IMG/VR virus record: IMGVR_UViG_3300043777_000173
Coordinates: 1-64,000 of that record
Strand: one strand, 5' to 3'
Length of the DNA stretch: 64,000 bases
Origin: a virus
This document shows, piece after piece, positions 27,591 to 63,606 of this stretch (the stretch's first letter is position 1; each line of letters begins with the position of its first letter). The translations under genes were made by a program, and so were the position numbers. The notes beneath the pieces were generated by a model. It was not told where the DNA came from. It worked only from the letters and a program-made list of their open reading frames with translations, and searched no databases.

Positions 27591-27913
27591 TGGCACTCGA
27601 AAAACCCATTGTCGAAAAACGCCCAACCACAATCCCAGAGCTGTATGGAACCTCGCGAGAAACGTGGCAGTATGTCACGCTTCCCCAAGAGGACCCGCTG
27701 GGAAAACCATTCCCCACAATCCGCCTAAACAAAGAGGCATTTGAAGCAGGCCAGACCTATCAGATTCCTGCCCCAATTGCCGCTTATGTTAACGATCGCA
27801 TCAAGAAGTTCAACCGCTCTTGCGTGCGTTTGTATCAGAATGACATGGCGCAAGACGGCATTGTCCGCACTGCGGATGGAGCCTCTGCGCCAATGCCCAC
27901 CCTGGTTCGTTAA
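27590..27913 (+). CDS. Hypothetical head-region protein, 107 aa
   Basis: Charged N-terminus, then FPTIRLNKEAFEAGQTYQIP and a helical KKFNRSCVRLYQND. Starts on the previous stop and its own stop overlaps the muralytic gene. No family recognised. Confidence 0.6.
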   Translation: MALEKPIVEKRPTTIPELYGTSRETWQYVTLPQEDPLGKPFPTIRLNKEAFEAGQTYQIPAPIAAYVNDRIKKFNRSCVRLYQNDMAQDGIVRTADGASAPMPTLVR

Positions 27914-28281
27914 TGGCTTGGACCTGGAAAATCACGTCCGGCACTTTGCTTAACCTTAACCTCATTCCAGTGGGGCATGGCTACGCTGGCCATGGCGAGG
28001 GCTTAAACAACCCCGCAATGTGCAATGTGCCGAACGTGGGTCCACTTCCAATAGGCACCTATACGATCGGCCAACCTCGTGACGATGATGAAGTAGGCAA
28101 ATTCGCGATGCCACTCATACCTGACACGTCGAACACGATGTTTGGCCGATCGGCTTTTTATATCCATGGGGACAACCCCTCTCTCAATCACACCGCCAGC
28201 GATGGCTGTATCATTCTTCCTCGCCCTGTCCGGACGGACATCGCGAACTCGGGCGATGACCAACTTATTGTCGAGGACTAA
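27913..28281 (+). CDS. Tlde1-type peptidoglycan enzyme (DUF2778)
   Basis: 122 aa. GHGEGLNNPAMCNVPNVGPL, PIGTYTIG, FGRSAFYIHGDNP and ASDGCIILPR match the Tlde1/DUF2778 L,D-transpeptidase-like fold with catalytic His (IHGD) and Cys (SDGC). Family members cut or exchange peptidoglycan peptides. No signal peptide, so it may be a virion muralysin or the endolysin. The stop codon TAA is supplied by hairpin repeat copy 7. Confidence 0.85.
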   Translation: MAWTWKITSGTLLNLNLIPVGHGYAGHGEGLNNPAMCNVPNVGPLPIGTYTIGQPRDDDEVGKFAMPLIPDTSNTMFGRSAFYIHGDNPSLNHTASDGCIILPRPVRTDIANSGDDQLIVED

Positions 28282-28299
28282 CCCCGTTCTATGCGAGGA
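28278..28299 (-). repeat. Dispersed hairpin repeat, copy 7
   Basis: CTAACCCCG-TTCTATG-CGAGGAA on the plus strand, antisense to transcription. Its TAA ends the Tlde1 gene and its ATG (28291) starts the phosphatase gene. Confidence 0.9.
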
Positions 28300-28875
28300 A
28301 TTTTATTGGTTCGCCATGGCAACACGACCTATGACGATAAGGTGGATGCCCTACTTGATCCGCCCCTCGACGAGGAAGGGATGGAGCGAATTGCCCGGAC
28401 TGTGCAGTTTATACACGAGGGAGACTTCGGAATCAAGCGTGTAATCTCCTCGCCCCTCCAGAGGACCCTTCGCCTGGCCTCAAAGATCGCAGACAACAAC
28501 CTCCGAGTCACCACCAACAACGCGGCACTCCCTTGGAACCTCGGAGACCTGATGGGCAAGTTGACGAAGGTGGTCCAGCCCAAGATTGATTATCTTGAGA
28601 ACTACCCGGACATCAAGGCCCCACACGGCGAGTCTTATAGGACCTTCTATAATCGGTGGTCCGAATTCCTTCGGCGGCTGATGACTTACTTCGAGGTACA
28701 TCCGGATAACTCGCTGGCGGTCGTCACACATTCGCGGAACATTGATGCAATTGAAAGCATCGTGGGGGACGCGCCTATCGGGGATGTAACTCCTATATCC
28801 CCTGAAGCCAGCGTTACCCTCCTCGCAAAGAACGGGGTTAGCTGGACTTACAGTCAAATCTGGAATGGTAAATGA
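28291..28875 (+). CDS. Histidine phosphatase superfamily protein
   Basis: 194 aa phosphoglycerate-mutase-like fold: catalytic RHG motif LLVRHGN (His9 region), SSPLQRT and a second His in VVTHSRN. Substrate unknown. Its start codon lies inside hairpin repeat copy 7 and its C-terminus contains copy 8 (LLAKNGV), so the gene is bracketed by repeats like a cassette among virion genes. It overlaps the next gene (ATGA). Confidence 0.85.
   Translation: MRGILLVRHGNTTYDDKVDALLDPPLDEEGMERIARTVQFIHEGDFGIKRVISSPLQRTLRLASKIADNNLRVTTNNAALPWNLGDLMGKLTKVVQPKIDYLENYPDIKAPHGESYRTFYNRWSEFLRRLMTYFEVHPDNSLAVVTHSRNIDAIESIVGDAPIGDVTPISPEASVTLLAKNGVSWTYSQIWNGK
28818..28841 (+). repeat. Dispersed hairpin repeat, copy 8
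   Basis: CCTCCTCG-CAAAGAA-CGGGGTTAG within the phosphatase coding region, read in frame as LLAKNGVS. The CAAAG loop avoids an in-frame TAG. Confidence 0.9.
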
Positions 28876-47198: not shown

Positions 47199-49159
47199 TC
47201 ACATTCTCCCCAAGATGGCCCATACTTCATTTCAATTGGCAATGTCATTCCTCTTAGCTCCGGCCACGGCTGAGTAGCAACCTTCTTCACTATCTCCATG
47301 ACTTCTTTAACTTGGTTGCGCGGACTTTCCCCAACCAAGGAGTCGTGCACACAAATAAGTATATTAGATGGTTTGGGAAGAGGGTGATAAACACCAACGA
47401 CCTTTTTAACAAGTTCCTCTGGCCAACCAATCCTCTGGTACAGCAAGGCGATCATTACTCGATATAAAACATCTGCTCCAGTCGCCTGTGGGGGGAAGCT
47501 AAGAGGCTTAGTGTAAGTGTCAGAGGTCCAGTACCACTGCTTGCGACCAAAGGGATTGGTTAGGACTCCATTACGAGAAGCTTCTTCGGCAAGTTTTTGC
47601 TGCCAACCAATAGTGGGCTTTATCTCGGCCTTCCAAGCATCAAAGAGTTCATAACACTCCTTTAGCTCAATGCCATACATTTTGCTGGCCTTTTTTGGAC
47701 CTAAACCACGATCTACCCCATGGACTACATGCTTTGCTTTCGAGTAAACACTATCTGGATCACTTGATTTTTCTATCTGCGCGTAGGGTATACCAGAAAT
47801 TTTACTTGCTAAATACTTATGTTCCGAGAATCCGGGAACCTCCAGCCGTTTCGTCCGCTCTTTATCCCCCGCAAAGTAAGACTGAAGTCTGTTTTCAATT
47901 CCGCTAAAATCCATCTCCCAGATAACCCAATCGGCATGGTGTGGGACATAGATATGCCGGATAGAGCCTGGAATATTTTGAAGATTAGGATTGCTACTGG
48001 AAAGTCGCCCAGTACAAGTGCCGTGTACGTTGAAAGACGGATGGACGATTGTAACCGGCTGCTTGCCCTCTTCTATTTTCAAAAAGGTAGAAAGCAGTTC
48101 ATCCATTTTATTTAAGGTACGTAATGCTTTTACAGCCACGTTTCCAGTTTTGGAATAGATACGCTCCAAGGCTGCGTGTCCCGTAGTAATATGCCCCTTC
48201 TTGGCATCTACTATTGGTGCCAATCCAAGCTGTCCAGGTCCATCTCCATAGAGCCAGGCTTGCTTGGCAGCGGGACTGCGCCATGGAATCGTACGCTCTT
48301 TATCTGGAACGTGGATGTACTTAACAGGTTTTCCGGACTTTCCGAGAGTTCCTGGAGGCGCTGGTACCCGGCGCTTGATGTCAATATCGTGACTTCGTAG
48401 AGATTCTGGTAGTTGGAGTTCAAGCTGGGCAGATTCCTTCAGGAGACGGTCTCGGACTTCACCGATTCGATTGGGATTGACTTTGAATCCAGTGGTGTGT
48501 AGAAGGTGACAGATTCGGGCAAGGGGGACTTGGACCAAGGTATATAAATCACGTAACCCTTCCCGTTCAACCAAGGGCAGGAGCTGTTGATAACACATGT
48601 AAGTAACATCCGTGTCCCTACAACAGTATAGCTCCCATCCTTCACTTTTGTCATCCTTCCAAGCAGGCTTACTTACGAACTGACTTCCGACAAACTCCAA
48701 GTCATGAGGTAAGTCCGGGCACACGAGGTGCTGGAGCAGCATAGTGTCCCAAACTTGGCACCGATCTTCATTGATTTTAACATCAATGTCCCGCAGTTTG
48801 GGCAAATCAAATTGCAGACAATTATGCCCGATGACCGCAGTTGCGTTTCGGAAGATTCGCTTAACCTCCGAGGCATACTCTCCTCGGATGGGCACGCACA
48901 TCGCTCGGGTAGCCTCAGCACACAGGCCGACCATCTCGGCGGGGGCAGATTCGCCCATAGTTTTGTAGCGAGGACATTCTATGTCAAATGCGAAGACGGT
49001 TGCAGTAAAATTGCGGACATCTTCTATGTTCGGAAAGGGAAGGTAATGTTCTTCTGGTTCAATTAAAGACTTAGTTAAATCATTAGCCGCCACAGGAAGC
49101 ATTGTTTGCTCCCGCATAAGCGCGCTGGGATGAATTATTGAAATCGCTTTGAACTTCAA
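47195..49159 (-). CDS. DNA polymerase I family, with UDG C-terminal piece
   Basis: 654 aa as read. Exonuclease motifs D59-E61 (FDIEC), GHNCLQFD near 111-118 and RDTDVTYMCY near 181-190; polymerase motif A DFSGIENR (D417), motif B around KHVVHGVDRGLGPKKASKMYG, motif C VHDS (D606; Ser where Glu is usual). Residues 2-45 (KFKAISIIHPSALMRE) are the C-terminal part of a uracil-DNA glycosylase, so the original protein was a UDG-polymerase fusion now cut by a LAGLIDADG ORF. The TTG start overlaps that ORF's stop. Confidence 0.9.
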   Translation of the reverse strand: MKFKAISIIHPSALMREQTMLPVAANDLTKSLIEPEEHYLPFPNIEDVRNFTATVFAFDIECPRYKTMGESAPAEMVGLCAEATRAMCVPIRGEYASEVKRIFRNATAVIGHNCLQFDLPKLRDIDVKINEDRCQVWDTMLLQHLVCPDLPHDLEFVGSQFVSKPAWKDDKSEGWELYCCRDTDVTYMCYQQLLPLVEREGLRDLYTLVQVPLARICHLLHTTGFKVNPNRIGEVRDRLLKESAQLELQLPESLRSHDIDIKRRVPAPPGTLGKSGKPVKYIHVPDKERTIPWRSPAAKQAWLYGDGPGQLGLAPIVDAKKGHITTGHAALERIYSKTGNVAVKALRTLNKMDELLSTFLKIEEGKQPVTIVHPSFNVHGTCTGRLSSSNPNLQNIPGSIRHIYVPHHADWVIWEMDFSGIENRLQSYFAGDKERTKRLEVPGFSEHKYLASKISGIPYAQIEKSSDPDSVYSKAKHVVHGVDRGLGPKKASKMYGIELKECYELFDAWKAEIKPTIGWQQKLAEEASRNGVLTNPFGRKQWYWTSDTYTKPLSFPPQATGADVLYRVMIALLYQRIGWPEELVKKVVGVYHPLPKPSNILICVHDSLVGESPRNQVKEVMEIVKKVATQPWPELRGMTLPIEMKYGPSWGECE

Positions 49160-49614
49160 TGCACGCCCCGAGCATTTAATTCTTTCATTTGTTGTCGAAA
49201 ACCTTCCCGTAATTGTAATTCATTTACCGAGAGTTGAATCGGGCCAATCCAGCGGAAAGGGGCCATATGTTCACGGAATTGTATGGCCAGCAGTGCTTGT
49301 TCTCTTTTGATTCGAAGATAAGGCAATAATACCTTTGCCATATCTTGAACGTTCTCTCCGTAAATTTTCCATTCCCAAACATTTTTGGCCGGAGGTTTAC
49401 GATTGCGAGGTTTTGCTGTACCCCCAAATATTTCCTCAAACTTTTGAATAGCTTCATAACGAGTCATAAGAAGACTCGCTACAAGGCCATAATACGGAGA
49501 GACACGCCCGCGTTTGCACTGAGCAGTGGCTTTTCCAATATGAATACAACCTTCACCGTCAAATAACCCGGCGCAATAAGCAAGATCAGTCTCGGACACG
49601 TTGTTCAATTTCAT
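49156..49614 (-). CDS. LAGLIDADG homing endonuclease
   Basis: 152 aa with a single LAGLIDADG helix (LAYCAGLFDGEGCIHI), so it acts as a dimer. GTAKPRNRKPPAKNVWEW is the usual second strand region. Out of frame with the UDG piece it overlaps, which excludes an intein. It fills almost the whole 465-base insertion. Confidence 0.85.
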   Translation of the reverse strand: MKLNNVSETDLAYCAGLFDGEGCIHIGKATAQCKRGRVSPYYGLVASLLMTRYEAIQKFEEIFGGTAKPRNRKPPAKNVWEWKIYGENVQDMAKVLLPYLRIKREQALLAIQFREHMAPFRWIGPIQLSVNELQLREGFRQQMKELNARGVH

Positions 49615-49621
49615 TGGTGTC
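49157..49621 (-). mobile_element. LAGLIDADG insertion in the UDG-polymerase gene
   Basis: Removing these 465 bases joins UDG codon ATT to AAG in frame, giving KWRGSPITI then KFKAISIIHPSAL, the expected spacing between the glycosylase RG and HP motifs. The upstream exon ends in U and the insertion in G. A GACAC/GTGTC hairpin lies at its start. No room remains for a separate ribozyme core. Confidence 0.7.
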
Positions 49622-50095
49622 AATTGTTATCGGCGATCCTCTCCATTTAGTAATTCCAAACTTCCCACCGATCCAATGTAAAGCATGATTGCCTATTAAA
49701 TCAATTCGAGTCCAATTCCGAGATTTAACCAAAGGCAATACATGGTTGCGGATGCACTGCTTAATGGCAAGTTCTCCGTCTACTTTCGTGATGTAGGACC
49801 TTGCTTCCGAACTTGAAGGAAAAAGGTTATCAGGAGGACGACAGCTAAGGCAATTAGTGATCGTGAGCCCATCGCGGGGAATTCCTGCCGATCTAAGGAG
49901 ATTGTTGAAGACTCGTCCGGAGCCGCCCACAAGAGGCTGCCCCTCGACAGCCTCCTGCTCACCAGGAGCTTCCGCAATTACTAGACGAACTAAATCCCTG
50001 GCGGGATTGGGAAGCTGCGGCTCAACGAAGCGATTGTTGGGGAACAACCGCTGCATTGGGCATCCGTCGCACTTCCTATTTTCTGAGACGTTCAG
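49586..50095 (-). CDS. Uracil-DNA glycosylase (family 4-like), N-terminal part
   Basis: CDGCPM and CRPPDN supply Fe-S cysteines, IAEAPGEQEAVEGQPLVGGS is the uracil-binding motif and KWRG precedes the break. The frame ends without the HPSxxxR motif, which is at the start of the polymerase ORF. CDGC is upstream of the first ATG (50056), so translation probably starts at CTG 50095, directly after the previous gene's TAA. Excises uracil; fusion to polymerase suggests replication-coupled repair. Confidence 0.75.
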   Translation of the reverse strand: MNVSENRKCDGCPMQRLFPNNRFVEPQLPNPARDLVRLVIAEAPGEQEAVEGQPLVGGSGRVFNNLLRSAGIPRDGLTITNCLSCRPPDNLFPSSSEARSYITKVDGELAIKQCIRNHVLPLVKSRNWTRIDLIGNHALHWIGGKFGITKWRGSPITIDTNEIEQRVRD

Positions 50096-54950: not shown

Positions 54951-55048
54951 GTGTGTCTCTTGTCACGGGGTTTTACCCACTCGAACATACATGACAAGAG
55001 AGACATATTATGATAGATATTATTAGTATCTAATCAAAACCTAATTCC
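54951..55048. repeat. Second copy of the 3.75-3.86 kb segment
   Basis: Carries CTTGTCACGGGG, AAGAGAGACATATTATGATAG and AAAACCTAATTCCT in the same order as 3746-3860. Here TGTCTCTTGTCA and TGACAAGAGAGACA form an inverted repeat (54954-54965, 54992-55005). Confidence 0.6.
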
Positions 55049-55181: not shown

Positions 55182-55204
55182 CCCCTCGCCTAGAACGGGG
55201 TTAG
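55182..55204 (+). repeat. Dispersed hairpin repeat, copy 13
   Basis: CCCCTCG-CCTAGAA-CGGGGTTAG on the plus strand, antisense to transcription. On the minus strand its TAA ends the 66-aa gene and its GAGGGG serves the 49-aa gene. Confidence 0.85.
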
Positions 55205-55401
55205 GTCCCCGCATCCCTCTTGTGTCCAATATGCAGGTACTGGCAATTCATGCACAGGTAAAGCTCCAAGTTCTCCGGGTCATGGTAACGAGTCGTGTCC
55301 TTCTGGGCAGCCAGGAGGTAGGCCGGGGCCTCCTCAAGGCTGAGTCGTAACTTCCGGTGGCAGTTCTTCCGGTGGGAGCGGAGGCGGGTTTTGATGCTCA
55401 T
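55201..55401 (-). CDS. Small zinc-type protein, 66 aa
   Basis: ATG overlaps the amidoligase stop (ATGA). Basic N-terminus (KTRLRSHRKNCHRKLRLS), then CMNCQYLHIGHK, a CxxC...HxxH set. Stop codon supplied by repeat copy 13. May be a partner of the amidoligase. Confidence 0.6.
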   Translation of the reverse strand: MSIKTRLRSHRKNCHRKLRLSLEEAPAYLLAAQKDTTRYHDPENLELYLCMNCQYLHIGHKRDAGT

Positions 55402-56372
55402 AACCCCAACTGCTCCCATCTTCCCCGGAAATCCACGTCCGGATCAACCTGTAAGTGCCGGAGGCCCCTCTCAAGGAGCTTCTCCGAGGCCCTCGCGGCA
55501 TTCACATCCTTGCTCTTGTACTGCGTGAGCCACCCCTCGAAGGCGGCGAAGTTATCGCAATTGCGGAGCTTCTCAATGGTCCCTTCGGGATCAGCCGCTG
55601 CGAGCTTCGCCGCCGTCAAGCACAAAAAGGCTACCTTCGGATCATAAAGCCAACTAGCCATCGTCCGATATTCCATGTGACCATGGCAATCTCGTACATC
55701 CCCGTATGCTCCGTAATAATTCCCTTGTCCTTGAGCACTCGCTCGGCGAGCAGCACTCTCGCGTGAAGGCAGTATATCGAGGTGTTCAAGTGTCTTAGTG
55801 AGCGTGTCAAGTGCCTTTGTGACTTGCGCGCCACGCGCATTCAGCTCTCCTCCTAAAAGTGCCCCGCAGCCCTCCGGGGGCTTCCGAGTAAAACAGTTGA
55901 AACCAAAATGGACATGGCCTCCGAGGCAATCGCGATTACAGATTGCTCCTGCGCGGAGCCTGCCGGGAGCCACGGCCTTGGCTTTCTCCACTAAGGACTG
56001 AATCTTCTTGATGATCGGGAACACCCCTCGGGTGGGTTCGGGGCGAAACTCCGCTACTCTTCCCCCATGATCATATCCAATCTCTCCGTGAAGCGGGAAA
56101 TAAGTGCTCGCAGCGACTGTTCCTCCTTCTCCATTCAGGAGCATGAACTCCGGGTCACACCCGACTTTGAAATCATTTATCATGTTGCCTTCTTCGTCCT
56201 CAACAGGGTCGGCCGGTTGTCCGCCGCAGAGATTACCCATAACTGGTACAGCCATTGGAAGAGGATTTTGTGCGACCGCCTGCCCTAAATCGATTAAGCG
56301 TACATGGCCATACTGTCGGAGAAAACTAGCACTAACCCAATTGTAGCCAGCAAATTGGTTATATGGCGGCAT
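55398..56372 (-). CDS. COOH-NH2 amidoligase 1 (PF14395-like)
   Basis: 324 aa. Glutamine-synthetase-like amidoligase motifs: GCDPEF (73-76), AEFRPEPTR (108-115), GGHVHFG (151-157), EYRTMASWL (234-242). These supply the acidic and His residues that bind metal-ATP. The family joins carboxyl to amino groups. Next to sigma factor and zinc proteins; a second family member is at 59794. Substrate unknown. Confidence 0.82.
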   Translation of the reverse strand: MPPYNQFAGYNWVSASFLRQYGHVRLIDLGQAVAQNPLPMAVPVMGNLCGGQPADPVEDEEGNMINDFKVGCDPEFMLLNGEGGTVAASTYFPLHGEIGYDHGGRVAEFRPEPTRGVFPIIKKIQSLVEKAKAVAPGRLRAGAICNRDCLGGHVHFGFNCFTRKPPEGCGALLGGELNARGAQVTKALDTLTKTLEHLDILPSRESAARRASAQGQGNYYGAYGDVRDCHGHMEYRTMASWLYDPKVAFLCLTAAKLAAADPEGTIEKLRNCDNFAAFEGWLTQYKSKDVNAARASEKLLERGLRHLQVDPDVDFRGRWEQLGL

Positions 56373-56883
56373 CTCGCAATCTCTCCTTAAGCCTCGACCA
56401 CCTCACGATGGCCGCATTCCGGCTCACTCCAAGCGCCTCGCTGATCGTGTTGAAATCCTGCCCCTCGGCTACCAGCCTCAGCAACTTATGGTCATCTCCG
56501 TGTAGATCATTCAAAAGGGCAATCAAATCCAGCCTCGCGTCGAGGCCCTTCGGCTCCACGACCATCTCCTCTTCAAGGGAGGTCTCAAGTCGCTGCTTAT
56601 AGTTCCTCAAATACCGATTGCACTCGTTAATTGCAATCCTATAGAACCACGTCGCAAACTGGCTCTCCCCCCGGAAGCCCTCAGCCTTATCCAAGGCCCT
56701 CCACACAATCCCATTCGCAAGCTGGTCAAAATCATCCTTATGATCCGGCAGTCTCTGCCAGCAAATGGCCTTCGCGTATCTCTCCAGTCTTTGTATCAGC
56801 ACCTGCAAGGCCCATTCCTTCGCCCGGCCCACTGATGATTTCCACTCGGCGTACGCGGGATTTACATCTAAGATGATCGGCAT
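56359..56883 (-). CDS. ECF-type sigma factor
   Basis: 174 aa. Region 2: DFDQLANGIVWRALDKAEGF then QFATWFYRIAINECNRYLRN; region 4: HKLLRLVAEGQDFNTISEAL then GVSRNAAIVRWSRLKERLR, a helix-turn-helix. Directs RNA polymerase to specific promoters. The eight GTAATAT-N17-TCTAAAC promoters are the natural candidates for its targets, and none lies in the block holding this gene. Confidence 0.88.
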   Translation of the reverse strand: MPIILDVNPAYAEWKSSVGRAKEWALQVLIQRLERYAKAICWQRLPDHKDDFDQLANGIVWRALDKAEGFRGESQFATWFYRIAINECNRYLRNYKQRLETSLEEEMVVEPKGLDARLDLIALLNDLHGDDHKLLRLVAEGQDFNTISEALGVSRNAAIVRWSRLKERLRDAAI

Positions 56884-56897
56884 AACTTGGGTCCAGT

Positions 56898-57386
56898 CTA
56901 CAAATTGCCTGTTGCACGCATCGAATCTGTCCAGCCACGACGGGCTTCATTCCGGGCGAGTATTTTCCAGAACTCGCTTGCTGGCTTAGTAAAGCCGCTC
57001 GATAAATGAGCAAGTTCACCTGTATCGGATCGTACCCACCGAGTACCGTCACTAAGTAGGCCCTTAATCTTGGGAGCCACTTTCTCAGGAACGGGAGGAT
57101 CGTCCCAGTAACCAACAGCCATCCCCGCGCAGCGCCAATCACCAAGGCGGCTCCAATCGCGGTGAACACTATACAAACGATAGCAGCCTTTCCTCCGGCT
57201 TTGCATACGGACCAAAATCTCGTCCCCGTGGCGAACGTTTCCTTTAATAACAAAGCGAGCATGGAAGTTATCCCCTCCCTCGAAACTGGCCCAGTGATCC
57301 TTCGTGGGCCTTGTAAAGTCAATCATGCAACGCAACGCGGGGAGCGGCTTCGGGGGGAACAACAACTCCTTCAAGAAGCGGAACAT
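56898..57386 (-). CDS. Hypothetical protein, 162 aa
   Basis: GGAGGT before ATG. Alpha/beta protein with FHARFVIKGNVRHGDEILVR and several Trp/Arg residues (GYWDDPPVPEKV). Not recognised. Lies between a zinc-ribbon gene and the sigma factor, overlapping the former. Confidence 0.65.
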   Translation of the reverse strand: MFRFLKELLFPPKPLPALRCMIDFTRPTKDHWASFEGGDNFHARFVIKGNVRHGDEILVRMQSRRKGCYRLYSVHRDWSRLGDWRCAGMAVGYWDDPPVPEKVAPKIKGLLSDGTRWVRSDTGELAHLSSGFTKPASEFWKILARNEARRGWTDSMRATGNL

Positions 57387-57624
57387 CCGGGACCTCCTCT
57401 CCGACGATTAGATCAGTCTTGAAGACCGGCAGGTCATCATGGAAACACTCTCGACAAGCGGGAAATACAGTCTTGCCTTCTCGAATCCAGATCGGCCTTA
57501 TGAAAGCCGCACACGCATCGCAGTACCAACCTGTTCCTCGGTTCTGGACACACTTGACTGTGCTTGCGCCCGGCGGGCGATTACCATTCGTTGTCAACTC
57601 TTGGTGCTCGTTCTCTGAGTTCAT
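57319..57624 (-). CDS. Zinc-ribbon protein, 101 aa
   Basis: Start at the ATG with GAGGGAGA, inside the end of the preceding gene; a frame opening at 57846 only adds shadow sequence. GWYCDACAAFIRPIW and FPACRECFHDD form a four-Cys zinc ribbon, followed by an acidic tail. Confidence 0.65.
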   Translation of the reverse strand: MNSENEHQELTTNGNRPPGASTVKCVQNRGTGWYCDACAAFIRPIWIREGKTVFPACRECFHDDLPVFKTDLIVGEEVPDVPLLEGVVVPPEAAPRVALHD

Positions 57625-58069
57625 TCTCCCTCGCTCTGATGCGCTCTGCAAGTCCGGCGACGCCCTCTGCAATTGGATTTTCAGGGGCAAATCGTACTTG
57701 TTGATTTCCTCGACCATAAATTGCTCCAGGTGGGGCGGGCTCCGGTGCAGCGTGCGGAATAGCCCACTCTCCTTGAAATGCTTGCAAGGGGGCCTCTCGT
57801 GGAACCGCCCTGTACCCAACAACCTGCTTCTTGACCTTCTTGCCAAGACCTAACGCCTGACAAATCTTCTTGTATCGGCTCCTCGACACTTTGATCCGCC
57901 TCGGCTCCCTCAAAATCCACAGCGGCGTGTGTAAAATCTGGGCGGCCTCGATTACTTCCTTGCGGGTTTTAACCGGAAGGCCTCGATAACTCGCCAGGAC
58001 ATTGAATACATCCTTCCCGCCATACCACCCGCCGCCACATTTTACCACATATCGAATGTGCGAAGCCAT
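57581..58069 (-). CDS. Hypothetical protein, 162 aa
   Basis: ATG with GGAGA upstream, two bases after the ATP-grasp stop. N-terminal region VVKCGGGWYGGKDVFNVLAS, then a basic helix-turn-helix-like part (TRKEVIEAAQILHTPLW) and a long Pro/Ala-rich C-terminus. Possibly DNA-binding; not assigned. Confidence 0.6.
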   Translation of the reverse strand: MASHIRYVVKCGGGWYGGKDVFNVLASYRGLPVKTRKEVIEAAQILHTPLWILREPRRIKVSRSRYKKICQALGLGKKVKKQVVGYRAVPREAPLQAFQGEWAIPHAAPEPAPPGAIYGRGNQQVRFAPENPIAEGVAGLAERIRARENELRERAPRVDNEW

Positions 58070-58070
58070 G

Positions 58071-58805
58071 CTATCTCCGTGCTTGAAAGCCGTTCCGTGT
58101 CCATCGTTCAATACAGTTGACCAACGAGGTCATCCCCTGTCGAGGTTCCCCTTGGGTTCCCGGCGCTGTATTAACTTCAAGGACGTAGTATCGTCGATCA
58201 GCGCCCAAAATAACATCCACACCGCCGAAATCAAGATCAAGGGCAGCCACCGCGTTGATGGCCAAGCTCTTGAGCGCGGGAGCGAGGCCCTCGGGATCGA
58301 CAAATTGATATGCGAATCCATTCGCCCAATTCCAGACTTCCTTGTTCCGGCCTCGCCGTCCATATTTATTTGGGTATTCGAGTTTCTTTTCATAAGTCGC
58401 GAGATGCTTCTGGCGGAATACCCACACCCGAAATTCATTCTGCTTCGAAACGACCATCGTATAGTAGTCGCTCAGATGATCACCTCGGAGGAGCGGTCGA
58501 ACCCCATACGCGAAGATATCATTTCCCCTCGTGTGATGGAACTTCCTGCCAAATATCGGTGGCACCAGGTCCGCTGCACTGTGCGAGAACGGGACGGTCC
58601 GAACTCCAGCTTCGTCGAGTTTGACCAGCTCCTGATACTTGTCTTGCCGCCCGGCATTGGCATTCAAGGTGGGCAGCCCTCGCCCATCTCCTGCATACCC
58701 ATAATTCACAATGCCTTGAATTGGTCTCCCGAGGAGGCCTTTCTCACTAAGCATCTCTCTCAACAGTCGCCCCGTGGGGCCTGCAATCGCTCGAAGCTCC
58801 AACAT
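58071..58805 (-). CDS. ATP-grasp ligase (RimK-like)
   Basis: 244 aa. NANAGRQDKYQELVKLDEAG is the ATP-grasp N-terminal loop, NEFRVWVF a central strand, and GVDVILGADRRYYVLEVNTA the metal-binding D/E/N strand. Such enzymes form amide bonds via acyl-phosphate. GGAGG precedes ATG. Between the glutamine amidotransferase and the regulatory genes of the block. Confidence 0.85.
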   Translation of the reverse strand: MLELRAIAGPTGRLLREMLSEKGLLGRPIQGIVNYGYAGDGRGLPTLNANAGRQDKYQELVKLDEAGVRTVPFSHSAADLVPPIFGRKFHHTRGNDIFAYGVRPLLRGDHLSDYYTMVVSKQNEFRVWVFRQKHLATYEKKLEYPNKYGRRGRNKEVWNWANGFAYQFVDPEGLAPALKSLAINAVAALDLDFGGVDVILGADRRYYVLEVNTAPGTQGEPRQGMTSLVNCIERWTRNGFQARR

Positions 58806-58814
58806 CTTGCCTCC

Positions 58815-59792
58815 TTAACCCAACTTTGTCTTGCAAGTCGCGCATTTGTAGCGCGGCAAATCCTTTAACATCGCGGCGTTCACGCTGATGTACAGCCCGC
58901 ACGCCGGGTTCGGACATTTAACCACATCCACCGGACGATCATCATAGAACTTCACCCGGTTGCCATGATATTGCTGATGACACAGATAGGTTGCGGGCGT
59001 CCAATTAACGGCAATCCGCATCTCTTGGGTCCATTCAACGCGGCTTCCTGTCCAATCCACATTGTCATCGTGTTGTGGTTCTCCGAACAACCACGCAGAG
59101 TTGTCTGTCATCCCGATCATGTAATAGTCAATTGGGGACATTTCCCGCATGGTTATCCCCCATACTTGTCGCATTGGCCGGAGGGCCTTGTACAAAGGCC
59201 CCCTCTCACTGGAGAACATCAACCAGTCCGCAGTTGCGGCCAACTCGATTGGGTTGCCACTCCTTCCAAGGAGCAGCTTGCCCGGATACTTAGGACTCAC
59301 GGCGGCAAACGCCGCATTCCCCGACAGGCGGCTCATCTTATTGATGGCCCCCCGACTGAACCCCTCTTTGTCCAGTATAGCTCTGAGAATATCGCTATCG
59401 GTCTCGGCCTTACGAGGCAGCTTCCACTCTGTAAAACCCCATTCATGATTTGAAATATGTCCATTGTGGACAAGCGCGGTCTCCCCCGCGAACATCGGAT
59501 GGTTATTGGCAATAATCTTAGGGCTTCCAACTGTCGCCTTTCGGGTGTGACCCAAGACGGTCACCGAGTCTGGGCGGAGATACTCTTCCATGAACCTCTG
59601 ATATTCCCGACTCGCGAGGAATTGATAGGCCGTTACATCCTGTTTCAGGATGGCCACACTCCCGTCGGCTTGTTGAATGGCAATCCCGGCGGCCTCCAGG
59701 CCCCGGTTCTGATTGTTCAGGATCAACAAGTCAATCATGTCTCGTTCGATTGGCTTGGCCCCGAATCGGTGCACACCAGTGATTCCACACAT
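58815..59792 (-). CDS. Class II glutamine amidotransferase with zinc ribbon
   Basis: 325 aa. MCGITGVHRF puts the catalytic Cys at position 2; GHTRKATVGSP and VHNGHISNHEW are the glutamine-binding loops of the Ntn GATase II fold. The C-terminal 35 residues (CPNPACGLYISV...CATCKTK) are a zinc ribbon. It would release ammonia from glutamine for the ligases next to it. Confidence 0.88.
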   Translation of the reverse strand: MCGITGVHRFGAKPIERDMIDLLILNNQNRGLEAAGIAIQQADGSVAILKQDVTAYQFLASREYQRFMEEYLRPDSVTVLGHTRKATVGSPKIIANNHPMFAGETALVHNGHISNHEWGFTEWKLPRKAETDSDILRAILDKEGFSRGAINKMSRLSGNAAFAAVSPKYPGKLLLGRSGNPIELAATADWLMFSSERGPLYKALRPMRQVWGITMREMSPIDYYMIGMTDNSAWLFGEPQHDDNVDWTGSRVEWTQEMRIAVNWTPATYLCHQQYHGNRVKFYDDRPVDVVKCPNPACGLYISVNAAMLKDLPRYKCATCKTKLG

Positions 59793-59793
59793 G

Positions 59794-61305
59794 TTATTCC
59801 CTCATTCCCTGCACTGGCATCGCCAGTATATCTCCGTACAAAATCTGTCCTTGAAACTTCGTCTTGGGTGATCGCTTCGCAAGCCCGGCTTTCCATTGGT
59901 CGTAGGAATCCGGCTTTACCTTCCCGACTTGCCAGAACGGAAACACAGTTTCCAACAACAATCTCCGGCATTCATGAAATGTAGCGGCCTCACGAGTCTT
60001 CTCTGAGGAGTAGATGATCCCCCCGTCTCCTCCCACAGTAACCTTGCCCCCACAAAACTTCTGCCATCCAACTGGCAGGGTCTTGGCCAAGTTACGCGGG
60101 ATCACGAAGTACAACCCTCGCGCCAAATCCCGATTGTTCCCCAACACATAATCAAAACTCTCGTGCCGGCAAACGTCCCATACCAACTCCCCAAGGCCCT
60201 TCGCTCCATGTGTATTCACATCATGGATGGCCATCACATAGCCATTCGGGGGATTGAGGGGATTCCAAGTCGGCTTAGGAACCCGGCTCCATAATATACT
60301 GTTCCCCGCCAAATACTCGAACATCTCCTCAATGTCTTCGCGATCCGGCTTGACGCTCTGTGGGATGCAGGTGATCTTCGTGGTGAAGGCCATCCCATCC
60401 CCGATTCCCCATCGCTTCTTGAAATCCCCGCCAGCATGAATCGGGAACTTCTTGGTGATCATCTTCAGCGCCAGTCGCGCGTCATCATCCACATCTTTGT
60501 AATAAGCCAGAAGATTCTTGATCCTCTGGAAATGCCGGTCCACACTCGGCAATACCACATAGCCTTGTGTCAAGGCCGGATTCTGCACTACGAGCTTTGC
60601 AAGTGTAATGGTGAGGAAAGCCAACTCCGGGCTGTCGAGCCAACTGGGAAATGTCCGATATTCATAGCCATGCAACTGGAGTCGAATATCACCAGGCAAT
60701 CCATAAGGATGATTGCGACCGTCGCCTTGTCTCCTCCGCATAACTTCTTTACAAGGATAGGCATTGACTGCCAACAGTTCATCTTCAAGGACATCAAGAG
60801 CTTTCACCTCCACGTCTCGCCCCGGTCGCTTCCTCCCAAAATGCACATGCCCGCCCACTCCATCCCCACAAATCCACGCCCCGGCACACCAGTCATACGC
60901 CAAGGTCTTGGGATATAGGATGGCCATCCATCGCAGGGCCGCTAGGATGCTCGCTGTGACGTTGAGGGCGCTCCGACTCGGATACGGGCGTATCTCGGTC
61001 AACCGCCCGTTGTTGTCCATCCCGAAGGCCAAGCCCTGCTGCAACTGTAACAGACGGGCGTCCGTCCTCTCCCCACCATGACTGAAGACAAACTCCGGGT
61101 CGGCCCCCAGCTTGAACCTGTTCACATATCTCCGCTGCCCGCAAAACTCGGTCGGCAGTTCCAGCAGCCTGTTCAGCCACTTGTCAATCTTCGGGGCCGG
61201 GACCGAGCACCCAAACGGCAGAGCCTGATTGAGTTGCTCCAACCTATAAATCCCCTGCTGGATCATCAGCCTCTTGAAAGCCTCGTGTTGTTCTTGATAT
61301 TTCAT
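59794..61305 (-). CDS. COOH-NH2 amidoligase 2, with extra domain
   Basis: 503 aa from ATG (in ATGA overlap with the zinc-ribbon gene; a TTG two codons earlier is less likely). GADPEF (69-72), TEIRPYPSR (104-111), GGHVHFG (151-157) and EYRTFPSWL (215-223) match amidoligase 1. About 200 C-terminal residues form an additional unknown domain (VMAIHDVNTHGAKGLGELV). Paralogue of 55398. Confidence 0.82.
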   Translation of the reverse strand: MKYQEQHEAFKRLMIQQGIYRLEQLNQALPFGCSVPAPKIDKWLNRLLELPTEFCGQRRYVNRFKLGADPEFVFSHGGERTDARLLQLQQGLAFGMDNNGRLTEIRPYPSRSALNVTASILAALRWMAILYPKTLAYDWCAGAWICGDGVGGHVHFGRKRPGRDVEVKALDVLEDELLAVNAYPCKEVMRRRQGDGRNHPYGLPGDIRLQLHGYEYRTFPSWLDSPELAFLTITLAKLVVQNPALTQGYVVLPSVDRHFQRIKNLLAYYKDVDDDARLALKMITKKFPIHAGGDFKKRWGIGDGMAFTTKITCIPQSVKPDREDIEEMFEYLAGNSILWSRVPKPTWNPLNPPNGYVMAIHDVNTHGAKGLGELVWDVCRHESFDYVLGNNRDLARGLYFVIPRNLAKTLPVGWQKFCGGKVTVGGDGGIIYSSEKTREAATFHECRRLLLETVFPFWQVGKVKPDSYDQWKAGLAKRSPKTKFQGQILYGDILAMPVQGMRE

Positions 61306-61445
61306 GGACAAACCACGCCGTAGTCACATGACAGACAGCCAACTATACCGCCCTTTAAACTGGCCTTCTTAGTATACTTCCGACCGCAATTCGGGCACAT
61401 GATTGACACCATCTCCGGCACCACCCGCCTCGGAAGATGATTCAA
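61302..61445 (-). CDS. Small zinc-ribbon protein, 47 aa
   Basis: TTG start overlapping the previous stop, own stop overlapping the amidoligase ATG. CPNCGRKYTKKASLKGG followed by CLSCDYGVVC is a classic CxxC...CxxC ribbon. Tight coupling suggests a subunit or chaperone for amidoligase 2. Confidence 0.65.
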   Translation of the reverse strand: MNHLPRRVVPEMVSIMCPNCGRKYTKKASLKGGIVGCLSCDYGVVCP

Positions 61446-61990
61446 ATCAATTGCTTCCACGGGTTTTCTTTTCTTAGCCACGCTCGATAGCTCCTCAAGT
61501 TCTCAATACCCGCCGCATCATCCATCTTCTCCCACGGGGAGTGGATGAAAAACCGATGGTTCTCATGCTCGATCAGCTTGTCAAACAGCGGCGTTCGCCA
61601 CGGATCAAAGAAGTCCTCGACCAGCTTCGACCACGGCGCATAGAAATATGACGGGCCGGGACTGTAATATTGGATCATCAACGCGCTTCGCGGCGTTGCG
61701 TGATGTGCAAACCTAAACACCCCAAGCTGGTCATACTCGCTAACCTTCACGCTCCCCTGCAACCCACAAAACCGCTTGATCTTTGGAATCAACAAGGGGT
61801 TTGGCTTACCATCATAAGCCCAAACCGTCATATAGTCCGCGAATAGCTGCCCGTCCTTCTTCGGGAGTCGTATTTGGACTTCGATCCTCCACCTCGTAGG
61901 CTCCCGCCCCGGAAATGGCTTGACCCGCTTCCTGTTGGCATTCACGGTCCAGAATGCCGGGTCTTTCGAGATTTGATTCAAGGACTTCAA
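61442..61990 (-). CDS. Hypothetical protein, 182 aa
   Basis: TTG start four bases after hairpin repeat copy 14. Trp/Pro/Phe-rich alpha/beta protein (RWRIEVQIRLPKKDGQLF, YFYAPWSKLVEDFFDPW). Not recognised. In the biosynthetic block between GNAT and zinc-ribbon genes. Confidence 0.65.
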   Translation of the reverse strand: MKSLNQISKDPAFWTVNANRKRVKPFPGREPTRWRIEVQIRLPKKDGQLFADYMTVWAYDGKPNPLLIPKIKRFCGLQGSVKVSEYDQLGVFRFAHHATPRSALMIQYYSPGPSYFYAPWSKLVEDFFDPWRTPLFDKLIEHENHRFFIHSPWEKMDDAAGIENLRSYRAWLRKENPWKQLI

Positions 61991-61993
61991 GGT

Positions 61994-62016
61994 CTAACCC
62001 CGTTCTTTGCGAGGAG
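61994..62016 (-). repeat. Dispersed hairpin repeat, copy 14
   Basis: CTCCTCG-CAAAGAA-CGGGGTTAG on the minus strand, one base after the GNAT gene stop, in sense. Confidence 0.9.
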
Positions 62017-62017
62017 A

Positions 62018-62494
62018 TTAAAACGAAATTCGCATCCACAAGTACACCATTTTGCCTTCCTTGTAATACCAGGACGCTTTTACAAATCCGTTATTTTCAA
62101 GCAGCTTAATCTCGCGCGCATTCGTTGAAAGCGTTGTAGCCAAGACGATGTTATAGCCAATCTCATTCGCCGCCTTTAGTCGAATTTGCAATAGCTCTTT
62201 TCCTAGTCCTATACCGCGAAATTCCGGTTCCACTACAGCATGATGAAAGACACAGATCGCTTTACAACCCGGAAGAGGCAATATCCCGAATTTAGCCACC
62301 TGTTCATAGCCACTGGTAGTATCCCACTTCCAGAGGGTATAGTCGCCTGTGTACGGAGTGCGTCGAAGGAATATCCGCCCGAGTTGCCGCCATACAAGCA
62401 GAGTCGGGTGTATACTTCCGAGCAGATGTTTTTCAAGGGCGACCCGACTCGCGCGGACTCGTTCTTCCGGTACATTGATTCCAAGTATTGGCAT
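62018..62494 (-). CDS. GNAT acetyltransferase
   Basis: 158 aa. VVEPEFRGIGLGKELLQIRL is GNAT motif A with the RGIGLG acetyl-CoA loop; NAREIKLLENNGFVKASW is motif B. Acetylates an amine substrate; in this block it may act on the amidoligase product. GGAGA before ATG. Confidence 0.85.
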   Translation of the reverse strand: MPILGINVPEERVRASRVALEKHLLGSIHPTLLVWRQLGRIFLRRTPYTGDYTLWKWDTTSGYEQVAKFGILPLPGCKAICVFHHAVVEPEFRGIGLGKELLQIRLKAANEIGYNIVLATTLSTNAREIKLLENNGFVKASWYYKEGKMVYLWMRISF

Positions 62495-63277
62495 TTAACA
62501 GTCTCCGCAATAAGCCTGACTCTCTGCTCTCCTGTTATGTATATCCTCGTGGCCCTTCTGGTCCACGAACATCGAACACATCATGCACCAGGCCCTCTCG
62601 GTCATCTTCTCCCCGAGGGTCACAATGGCCTTCTCATTGCTCTTGACCCTCGCGAGGAACTCCGCTTTTTTCTTCTGGAGCATCAGCTCGGTTTCGAGGG
62701 CCACCCACCGGGTTCCCACATCAAATTTCCATGCTCGCTCGCAAGCGGGCAGCTCGCAAATTGGCACGCCCCACTTATCATGATTGAATCTGTTCTTCTT
62801 ACAAATGATGCACTCCCGGCAATTCAGGAGCATCTGCTTGTAGGCATTGGTCAGCCGCACGGAGCATTGATTCCCGTCCAGCACATACCTCGAATCCGCG
62901 AAATGCAATGTCCGGTCTCTTGTGTTCCCATAAACACTCTGCCTACAGCACCGGCACATGGCAAACGCCATGCTCTGCTCCTCGACGCCAATCCAATACC
63001 GATATTCCTCCTGGCCTAGATTCCCCTTGGGGATCGAAAACTTGGCCTCTACATGCCACCCGCCCGGCGAATACCCATAACGCGGAACACACTGGTAGTG
63101 ATAAAAATCCCCTCTCGTATATTGGCCCTTGACTTGCTTACATCCAAGGAGGACCTCTCTAATCACGGCCTTCGAGCAAGTCGGACAGATTCCGGCCACG
63201 TCTTGAGGCTCCTCCCTCTTGGGAAGGCGGATGCCTCCGGGCATTGCCAATCGGCGGAGCATGTAGGGCGGTATCAT
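62495..63277 (-). CDS. Multi-zinc-ribbon protein, 260 aa
   Basis: Four Cys clusters: CPTCSKAV, CRCCRQS, CRECIICKKN and the C-terminal CMMC...CGDC, with a conserved-looking Trp/Tyr-rich middle (YRYWIGVEEQSMAF). Possibly a carrier or scaffold with several zinc sites. Starts in an ATGA overlap. Confidence 0.65.
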   Translation of the reverse strand: MIPPYMLRRLAMPGGIRLPKREEPQDVAGICPTCSKAVIREVLLGCKQVKGQYTRGDFYHYQCVPRYGYSPGGWHVEAKFSIPKGNLGQEEYRYWIGVEEQSMAFAMCRCCRQSVYGNTRDRTLHFADSRYVLDGNQCSVRLTNAYKQMLLNCRECIICKKNRFNHDKWGVPICELPACERAWKFDVGTRWVALETELMLQKKKAEFLARVKSNEKAIVTLGEKMTERAWCMMCSMFVDQKGHEDIHNRRAESQAYCGDC

Positions 63278-63606
63278 CGAGGCCTCTTAAACTCTTTGCT
63301 TCCATACAAATAGAGCGTGTTACCTTCTTTGTTACCCCAATCTGCCATATCTAGGTGCCCCTTGAAGGTTGCCAGCAGCTTGTATCCCTTGCTCAACAAC
63401 GCCTTCTTTTGTTTCTCAAATCCCTCTTCAGACTCGCCAATCACTGTCATCGTGACGGTGTTGTATCGCCCTCTGCACCCATTCCGGGGTTTCATCGTGT
63501 CGAACTTCGAGGCATCGCGTCGAGAAAACGCATCATCAAAACCCAGACAGTCGATCTCTCCGATCAATCGCACCGCGCAACATCCCGGCATTTCTAGTAC
63601 ACGCAC
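63274..63606 (-). CDS. Hypothetical protein, 110 aa
   Basis: GTG start whose ribosome site GGGGAGG comes from hairpin repeat copy 15. C-terminal half (VTMTVIGESEEGFEKQKKAL, LYLYGSKEF) is alpha/beta. First gene of the biosynthetic block visible in the window. Not recognised. Confidence 0.6.
   Translation of the reverse strand: MRVLEMPGCCAVRLIGEIDCLGFDDAFSRRDASKFDTMKPRNGCRGRYNTVTMTVIGESEEGFEKQKKALLSKGYKLLATFKGHLDMADWGNKEGNTLYLYGSKEFKRPR

Follow-up and report, generated by a model that had tools for sequence, protein, structure and literature searches.

A probable variant of the phage amidoligase, glutamine amidotransferase and ATP-grasp cassette in an environmental virus contig

Genes and enzymes of the block

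In the record IMGVR_UViG_3300043777_000173 (68,301 bases), which comes from an environmental bacterial virus, a block of minus-strand genes for predicted amide-forming enzymes occupies 55398-62494 of the window analyzed here, that is, positions 1-64,000 of the record. The genes overlap or are almost contiguous, with 1 nt between lig2 and the glutamine amidotransferase (GATase) gene, 9 nt between the GATase and ATP-grasp genes, and a 14 nt overlap between the sigma factor and lig1 genes (Table 1). A preliminary description of this DNA had reported two amidoligases (here LIG1 and LIG2), an ATP-grasp ligase, a GATase and a GNAT acetyltransferase, all of which were recovered as Pfam and PHROGs matches, the two agreeing for the block enzymes. 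The count of two amidoligases holds for the block, but a third PF14395 ligase (LIG) is encoded further along the record, outside the window, and the gene inventory, though right for the enzymes, had left an extracytoplasmic function (ECF)-type sigma factor gene unmentioned. Compared with the nearest relative, contig L024, divergence in the enzyme genes was lowest at codon position 2, intermediate at position 1 and highest at position 3, indicating coding constraint as for translated genes. A clear transmembrane segment was found in none of the block proteins (maximum KD19 of 1.69), consistent with enzymes that work on precursors in the cytoplasm.

Pfam assigns LIG1 and LIG2 to PF14395, the phage phiEco32-like COOH-NH2 ligase type 2 family. 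The motifs G[AC]DPEF, E[FI]RPxPxR, GGHVHFG and EYRTxxSWL, previously quoted as shared, are present in both LIG1 and LIG2, the catalytic motifs of LIG1 being at residues 71, 108, 151 and 234. GxDPE, E-x-R-P, GGHxH and EYR are retained across the three ligases, except that the third has EFAP in place of E-x-R-P. By HHalign, LIG1 and LIG2 match PF14395 ligases at 98% and Amidoligase_2 at <3%; with a value of 0.7% for LIG2, we rejected the idea that this protein is a diverged Amidoligase_2. In the ligase tree, LIG1 and LIG2 form sister clades (support 98) separate from the clade of LIG and phiEco32 gp86. The third ligase, which matches gp86 with a phmmer E of 1e-16, is on sequence grounds the direct counterpart of that protein.

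The AlphaFold model of LIG2 (pLDDT 88.9, pTM 0.89) had as its best solved matches in Foldseek YbdK and a Salmonella homologue, the Pup ligase PafA, glutamine synthetases, bifunctional glutathione synthetase and gamma-glutamylmethylamide synthetase (GmaS); the best match among viral models was the COOH-NH2 ligase of phage CW02. For YbdK, E was 6e-6 to 1e-5 with a probability of 1.0. The ligase-domain fold is like that of YbdK and other GCS2-type carboxylate-amine ligases and of glutamate-cysteine ligases, but LIG2 differs from the YbdK/GCS2 type in its long C-terminal extension, and at 13-15% identity and low TM-scores of about 0.3-0.4 the match indicates the superfamily, not the function. Other folds had been named in advance as evidence against an amidoligase block; for LIG2, the predicted structure belongs with the carboxylate-amine ligase superfamily (YbdK, PafA, glutamine synthetase, GmaS). 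These structural matches lend good support to amide-ligase chemistry.

In the GATase, C2, R84, N110-G111 and D132 are invariant among 11 sequences, providing the N-terminal Cys nucleophile and the glutamine-site Arg, Asn-Gly and Asp of an N-terminal nucleophile (Ntn) glutamine amidotransferase. The GATase profile matched the GlmS N-domain with E=1.6e-28 and touched EgtC too; the Cys2 nucleophile and catalytic residues are shared with both of these domains, while the phage protein, unlike GlmS, is without an attached sugar-isomerase or synthase domain and has a zinc-ribbon tail. Its previous assignment to class II stands, but the ammonia release ascribed to it does not follow, an EgtC-like gamma-glutamyl amidohydrolase being equally possible. 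The ATP-grasp protein conserves E210-x-N212 and D197, and its profile found RimK alpha-L-glutamate ligases as nearest solved relatives (5zct, E=2e-14; 4iwx), followed by D-Ala-D-Ala ligase and others. It differs from RimK in being shorter, in scoring under the NCBIfam RimK cut-off and in its gene context. Among environmental virus contigs, at least 513 stretches contain relatives of this protein.

Conservation of the block in environmental contigs

No relative of LIG1 or LIG2 was detectable among 50,697 deposited phage records, 301 of which contain relatives of the third ligase. Direct protein searches of phages with LIG1 and LIG2, and single-sequence scans of viral contigs, gave no match, and relatives of the lineage were found only once alignments of the ligases and ATP-grasp replaced single-sequence queries. 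Alignment scans and profile mapping identified 21 further environmental virus contigs, which together with the present record make up a lineage of 22 records.

These records have the one-strand order LIG-W146...W260-W182-LIG2-GATase-ATP-grasp-(W176)-sigma-LIG1. LIG, W146, W260, LIG2 and GATase are each present in all 22, and LIG2 is followed by GATase in every one. The ATP-grasp gene is found in 21 (contig L031 stops short of its position), the sigma gene in 18, and LIG1 and W182 in 13 each. In whole-record searches, Amidoligase_2 (PF12224) was detected in 0 of 21 lineage records versus 7 of 8 controls with the known architecture. All 21 records have at least two copies of PF14395, and 13 have three. 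Given the PF12224 result, and because the LIG1 and LIG2 profiles match PF14395 rather than Amidoligase_2, the slot of Amidoligase_2 is occupied in this lineage by LIG2, a predicted PF14395 ligase. GGACT/GGCT (PF06094) was detected in 12 of the 21 records; it was not found in the present record, which is possibly incomplete, nor in its three nearest relatives.

The recurrence of this order bears on whether the block could be an assembly or annotation artefact or a chance gathering of unrelated enzymes. The record is a metagenomic contig whose completeness is not established, but the same order, with coding constraint, recurs in the 21 other contigs, and this conserved synteny refutes such an origin, leaving it a negligible probability. 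We regard it as confirmed that the block described earlier is real, correctly annotated and beyond chance.

Among 83 distinct GATase loci, an amidoligase was present in all but one and ATP-grasp in most, which marks these as the fixed parts. Adjacent pairs were Amidoligase_2-GATase in 30 cases, LIG1/2-type ligase-GATase in 32 and GATase-ATP-grasp in 44. Phage contigs L012, L014 and L016 have a PF14395-like ligase beside GATase with ATP-grasp not detected, a possible minimal pair. PF14395-like ligases were also found in Thermoactinomycetaceae, Cohnella and Paenibacillus (L053-L082, for example L054 9461-10894). In the inspected examples these genes are flanked by what we take, from N-termini recognized by eye, to be a cotE-like spore-coat gene and mutS-mutL. 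The Bacillota proteins are cellular and fall on the LIG1/LIG2 side of the tree, but differ in that GATase and ATP-grasp cassette genes were not detected in the stretches examined; they are possible sporulation-linked amide ligases.

The number of small zinc ribbons had also been singled out. Two of the zinc features proved conserved: the Cys-rich GATase tail, throughout the lineage, and W260 (the ORF starting at 62495), in which C108, C111, H125, C138, C156, C159, C174 and C179 are invariant. The other candidates fared less well, with relatives of the ORF at 57319 in three contigs, of that at 55201 in two, and of those at 55030 and 61302 in 0 loci. Outside the window, W146 is a DnaJ-type CxxCxGxG zinc protein. 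Given the ArgX/LysX-type ligase among relatives of the ATP-grasp protein, we considered whether the zinc ribbons could be LysW-like amino-group carriers; this was rejected, as the small zinc ORFs show poor conservation and do not end in an acidic C-terminal tail.

The GNAT gene, previously counted in the full enzyme set, is present but accessory, being found in 11 of the 22 records at varying positions. Several records contain both GNAT and GGCT, so the two are not mutually exclusive alternatives. A reading of the block as an anti-phage defence system was rejected, with no convincing PADLOC match and a single marginal one to GNAT (E=0.0086). The predicted model of W182 (pLDDT 65.7) is too weak to place and gave no fold match; with an HHalign value of 0.2%, there was likewise no support for W182 being equivalent to the ~190-aa protein encoded 5´ of Amidoligase_2. 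The sigma gene exceeds the TIGR02937 score cut-off and, of the 13 records that have LIG1, immediately precedes it in 12; its product is possibly the phage's own late-gene sigma factor.

Table 1. Predicted genes of the block and associated features. Positions refer to the window unless marked as record positions; aa, amino acids.
Feature	Position	Strand	Evidence
LIG1, PF14395 COOH-NH2 ligase paralogue, 324 aa	55398-56372	-	Pfam E=7e-24
ECF-type sigma-70 factor, 174 aa	56359-56883	-	Sigma70_r2 E=1e-7; TIGR02937 E=6e-14
162-aa protein, close relatives only, no Pfam match	56898-57386	-	profile matches in 2 other contigs
Small CxxC...CxxC putative zinc ribbon	57319-57624	-	relatives in L024, L025 and L026
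W176, 176-aa protein after ATP-grasp, start codon uncertain	57581-58111	-	profile matches in 10/22 lineage records
RimK-like ATP-grasp carboxylate-amine ligase, 244 aa	58071-58805	-	Pfam RimK E=1e-7; PHROG 2599 E=2e-20
Class II GATase domain (Cys2 nucleophile) with C-terminal zinc ribbon, 325 aa	58815-59792	-	GATase_6 E=4e-11
LIG2, PF14395 COOH-NH2 ligase with C-terminal extension, 505 aa	59794-61311	-	Pfam E=1e-21
Possible 59-aa zinc ribbon, overlapping both neighbours	61302-61481	-	weak zinc-ribbon profile scores; 0 loci matched
W182, conserved protein 5´ of LIG2, PFPGxYPTR...YxGKP...EFD	61442-61990	-	13/22 lineage records
GNAT acetyltransferase, 158 aa, accessory	62018-62494	-	Acetyltransf_7 E=5e-7
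W260, zinc-binding protein, two Cys/His sites	62495-63277	-	22/22 lineage records
LIG, third PF14395 ligase	record 65955-67427, outside window		PHROG 3815 E=2e-30

Upstream of the block, window 63274-63606 and L005 15274-15777 (outside the window) encode two paralogous small proteins (mutual E=4e-4), members of which recur in close relatives. Elsewhere in the window, a histidine phosphatase (28291-28875, +; PF00300 E=9e-22) is encoded amid phage structural genes, and a LAGLIDADG-like ORF, probably a homing endonuclease, is located between a uracil-DNA-glycosylase-like gene and DNA polymerase A (49156-49623, -).

Possible product and target

We propose that the cassette, located on the replication side of the genome, encodes a cytoplasmic pathway that would make amide (peptide-like) bonds with ATP. 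The three ligases of the GCS/glutamine synthetase fold and the RimK-like ATP-grasp enzyme would each convert a carboxylate to an acyl phosphate and then couple it to an amine. The class II GATase would either deliver glutamine-derived ammonia to a partner ligase or remove gamma-glutamyl groups, and the zinc proteins would probably tether the enzymes together or bind substrate. The likeliest target would be the peptide side chain of a peptidoglycan precursor, amidated or extended, and the altered wall could lead to resistance to superinfecting phages or lytic enzymes. We put the probability of this explanation as a whole at roughly 0.45. Its parts differ in strength: ATP-dependent, cytoplasmic amide-bond chemistry is very probable, the roles suggested for the GATase and zinc proteins stand at about even odds, and peptidoglycan, the leading and already published guess, is a tentative choice of target to which the data point weakly. 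Earlier papers interpret the homologous cassette in the same way, as directed at the wall (PMC5498523, PMC10580990, PMC11945000). The preliminary description had envisaged an amide-linked compound or a modified protein, peptide or wall component, for which the profiles, catalytic motifs, predicted LIG2 structure and gene order all argue; overall, its interpretation is partly supported.

Several observations weigh against a wall-precursor pathway. As had been stated before, amidoligase/ATP-grasp systems have been predicted in phages with no known product, and the literature searched contains neither a reported product for any cassette member nor a report of peptidoglycan change in infected cells. 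No block protein is specific to wall-precursor binding, and among solved structures the ATP-grasp protein is closest to RimK, a protein modifier, with D-Ala-D-Ala ligases second. A Tlde1-type wall-acting enzyme is encoded elsewhere in the genome in only 2 of 27 cassette records. The present record contains such a gene at window 27913-28281 (+), encoding a 122-aa Tlde1/YkuD-type L,D-transpeptidase (PF10908 E=6e-14) within the virion-gene module; with a counterpart in 1 of 26 other cassette records, it was rejected as a cassette partner.

The kinship of the ATP-grasp protein with RimK, also seen in matches to RimK-family profiles, raises the possibility that the substrates are proteins of the host or the phage. 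A ribosomal protein, RNA polymerase or virion proteins, for example, could receive glutamate or amino-acid tails, which the GATase would trim. The resemblance of the LIG2 fold to PafA/Dop of the Pup-tagging pathway is in keeping with this, and in other phages a role in modifying host proteins has been suggested for R2K ATP-grasp enzymes (PMC4431377). However, several ligases together with a GATase and a frequent GGCT are more suggestive of a multistep pathway, whether for a small molecule or for the wall, and the cassette has no associated protein substrate, making protein modification unlikely, though a serious rival.

Also a serious rival, and somewhat less unlikely though still doubtful, is the production of a soluble gamma-glutamyl or amide metabolite, such as a polyamine conjugate or protected amine, for DNA packaging, counter-defence or metabolism. 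The ligases would add gamma-glutamyl groups and the GATase or GGCT would take them off, by analogy with EgtA/EgtC and BtrJ/BtrG, which are pairs of enzymes for gamma-glutamyl addition and removal. The LIG2 model matches YbdK, a carboxylate-amine ligase that acts as a gamma-glutamyl ligase, and the contact of the GATase profile with EgtC points the same way. Besides its presence in just over half of the lineage, GGCT is found in phiEco32, PaP4, phiM6, Waltz and others, and a minimal Arthrobacter version consists of GGCT-amidoligase-GATase. On the other hand, no amine-making enzyme was recognized within the block, and the failure to find GGCT in the present record and its three nearest relatives suggests that cyclotransfer removal of gamma-glutamyl groups is dispensable here.

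The cassette adjoins primase/polymerase genes in phiEco32, LUZ24-type and phiM6 phages, and the phiEco32-like Gordonclarkvirinae are highly restriction-resistant without a known modification pathway (PMC11990801), as might be expected if the cassette modified the bases of the phage DNA through amide linkages and thereby shielded the genome from restriction. Yet no base-hypermodification precursor gene was recognized among the scanned window proteins, and since DNA of the cassette phage tf is cut by RsaI, HpaI, EcoRV, SmaI and HaeIII (PMC3517423) and that of the cassette phage U17 by 11 of 16 enzymes (PMC11945000), bulk DNA modification is disfavoured and highly improbable. We attach equally little probability to a broader possibility, namely that both cassette architectures make an amide-linked product, a sparse base modification or small-molecule inhibitor, that blocks restriction or other DNA-targeting defences, with the zinc proteins of the lineage as DNA- or substrate-binding carriers. 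If true, this would account for the restriction resistance of phiEco32-like phages.

Relation to the known cassette

A seven-gene peptidoglycan modification cassette was described for RIO-1-like podoviruses, with phiEco32, 7-11, PA11, tf, LUZ24, PaP3 and CW02 listed as having it too (PMC5498523); for the putative cassette, that paper cites Iyer et al. 2009 and Hardies et al. 2013. It was also described in a LUZ24-like isolate (PMC11945000), and the notion that the wall is changed and superinfection excluded is credited to Iyer et al. 2009 in another paper (PMC10580990). Because the literature already names this module a putative peptidoglycan modification cassette, we regard the block as a variant and not a new kind of system. 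That it is a variant of the amidoligase/GATase/ATP-grasp cassette is almost certain, judging from homology, catalytic motifs, the predicted LIG2 fold and gene order.

The ATP-grasp and GATase proteins are homologous to those of phiEco32, PaP4 (LUZ24-like), phiM6, Vibrio 172P1 and Aeromonas APT65, whose cassettes have Amidoligase_2 (PF12224), the ~190-aa protein and often GGCT. For the GATase, phmmer gave E=6e-13 against PaP4 and 1.6e-6 against phiEco32, and HHalign 99.6% against the known-cassette GATase; for ATP-grasp, the corresponding values were 2e-11 to 6e-18 and 99.9%.

The variant is a natural swap that marks exchangeable parts, with a PF14395 ligase in place of Amidoligase_2 and GGCT dispensable. 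As LIG1 and LIG2 are without a match in deposited phages, its biology is unsampled by culture. Amidoligase cassettes are widespread, yet we found no reported product. The known version is carried by BASEL Kuraviruses growing on O-antigen-restored E. coli K-12, where its function is directly testable.

With the phiEco32/LUZ24/tf/RIO-1 cassette, the block shares a PF14395 ligase (here the third ligase), the class II GATase and the RimK-like ATP-grasp protein, as well as tight packing on one strand, location on the replication side and, in many relatives of the variant, GGCT. In contrast to that cassette, the variant is without Amidoligase_2 and its ~190-aa companion, and adds two PF14395 ligases, LIG2 in the Amidoligase_2 slot and LIG1 after the sigma gene, together with the zinc proteins W146 and W260, W182 and the zinc ribbon of the GATase; the present record is also without GGCT. 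Collectively, these features make up a distinct architecture of the known cassette, apparently one not described before.

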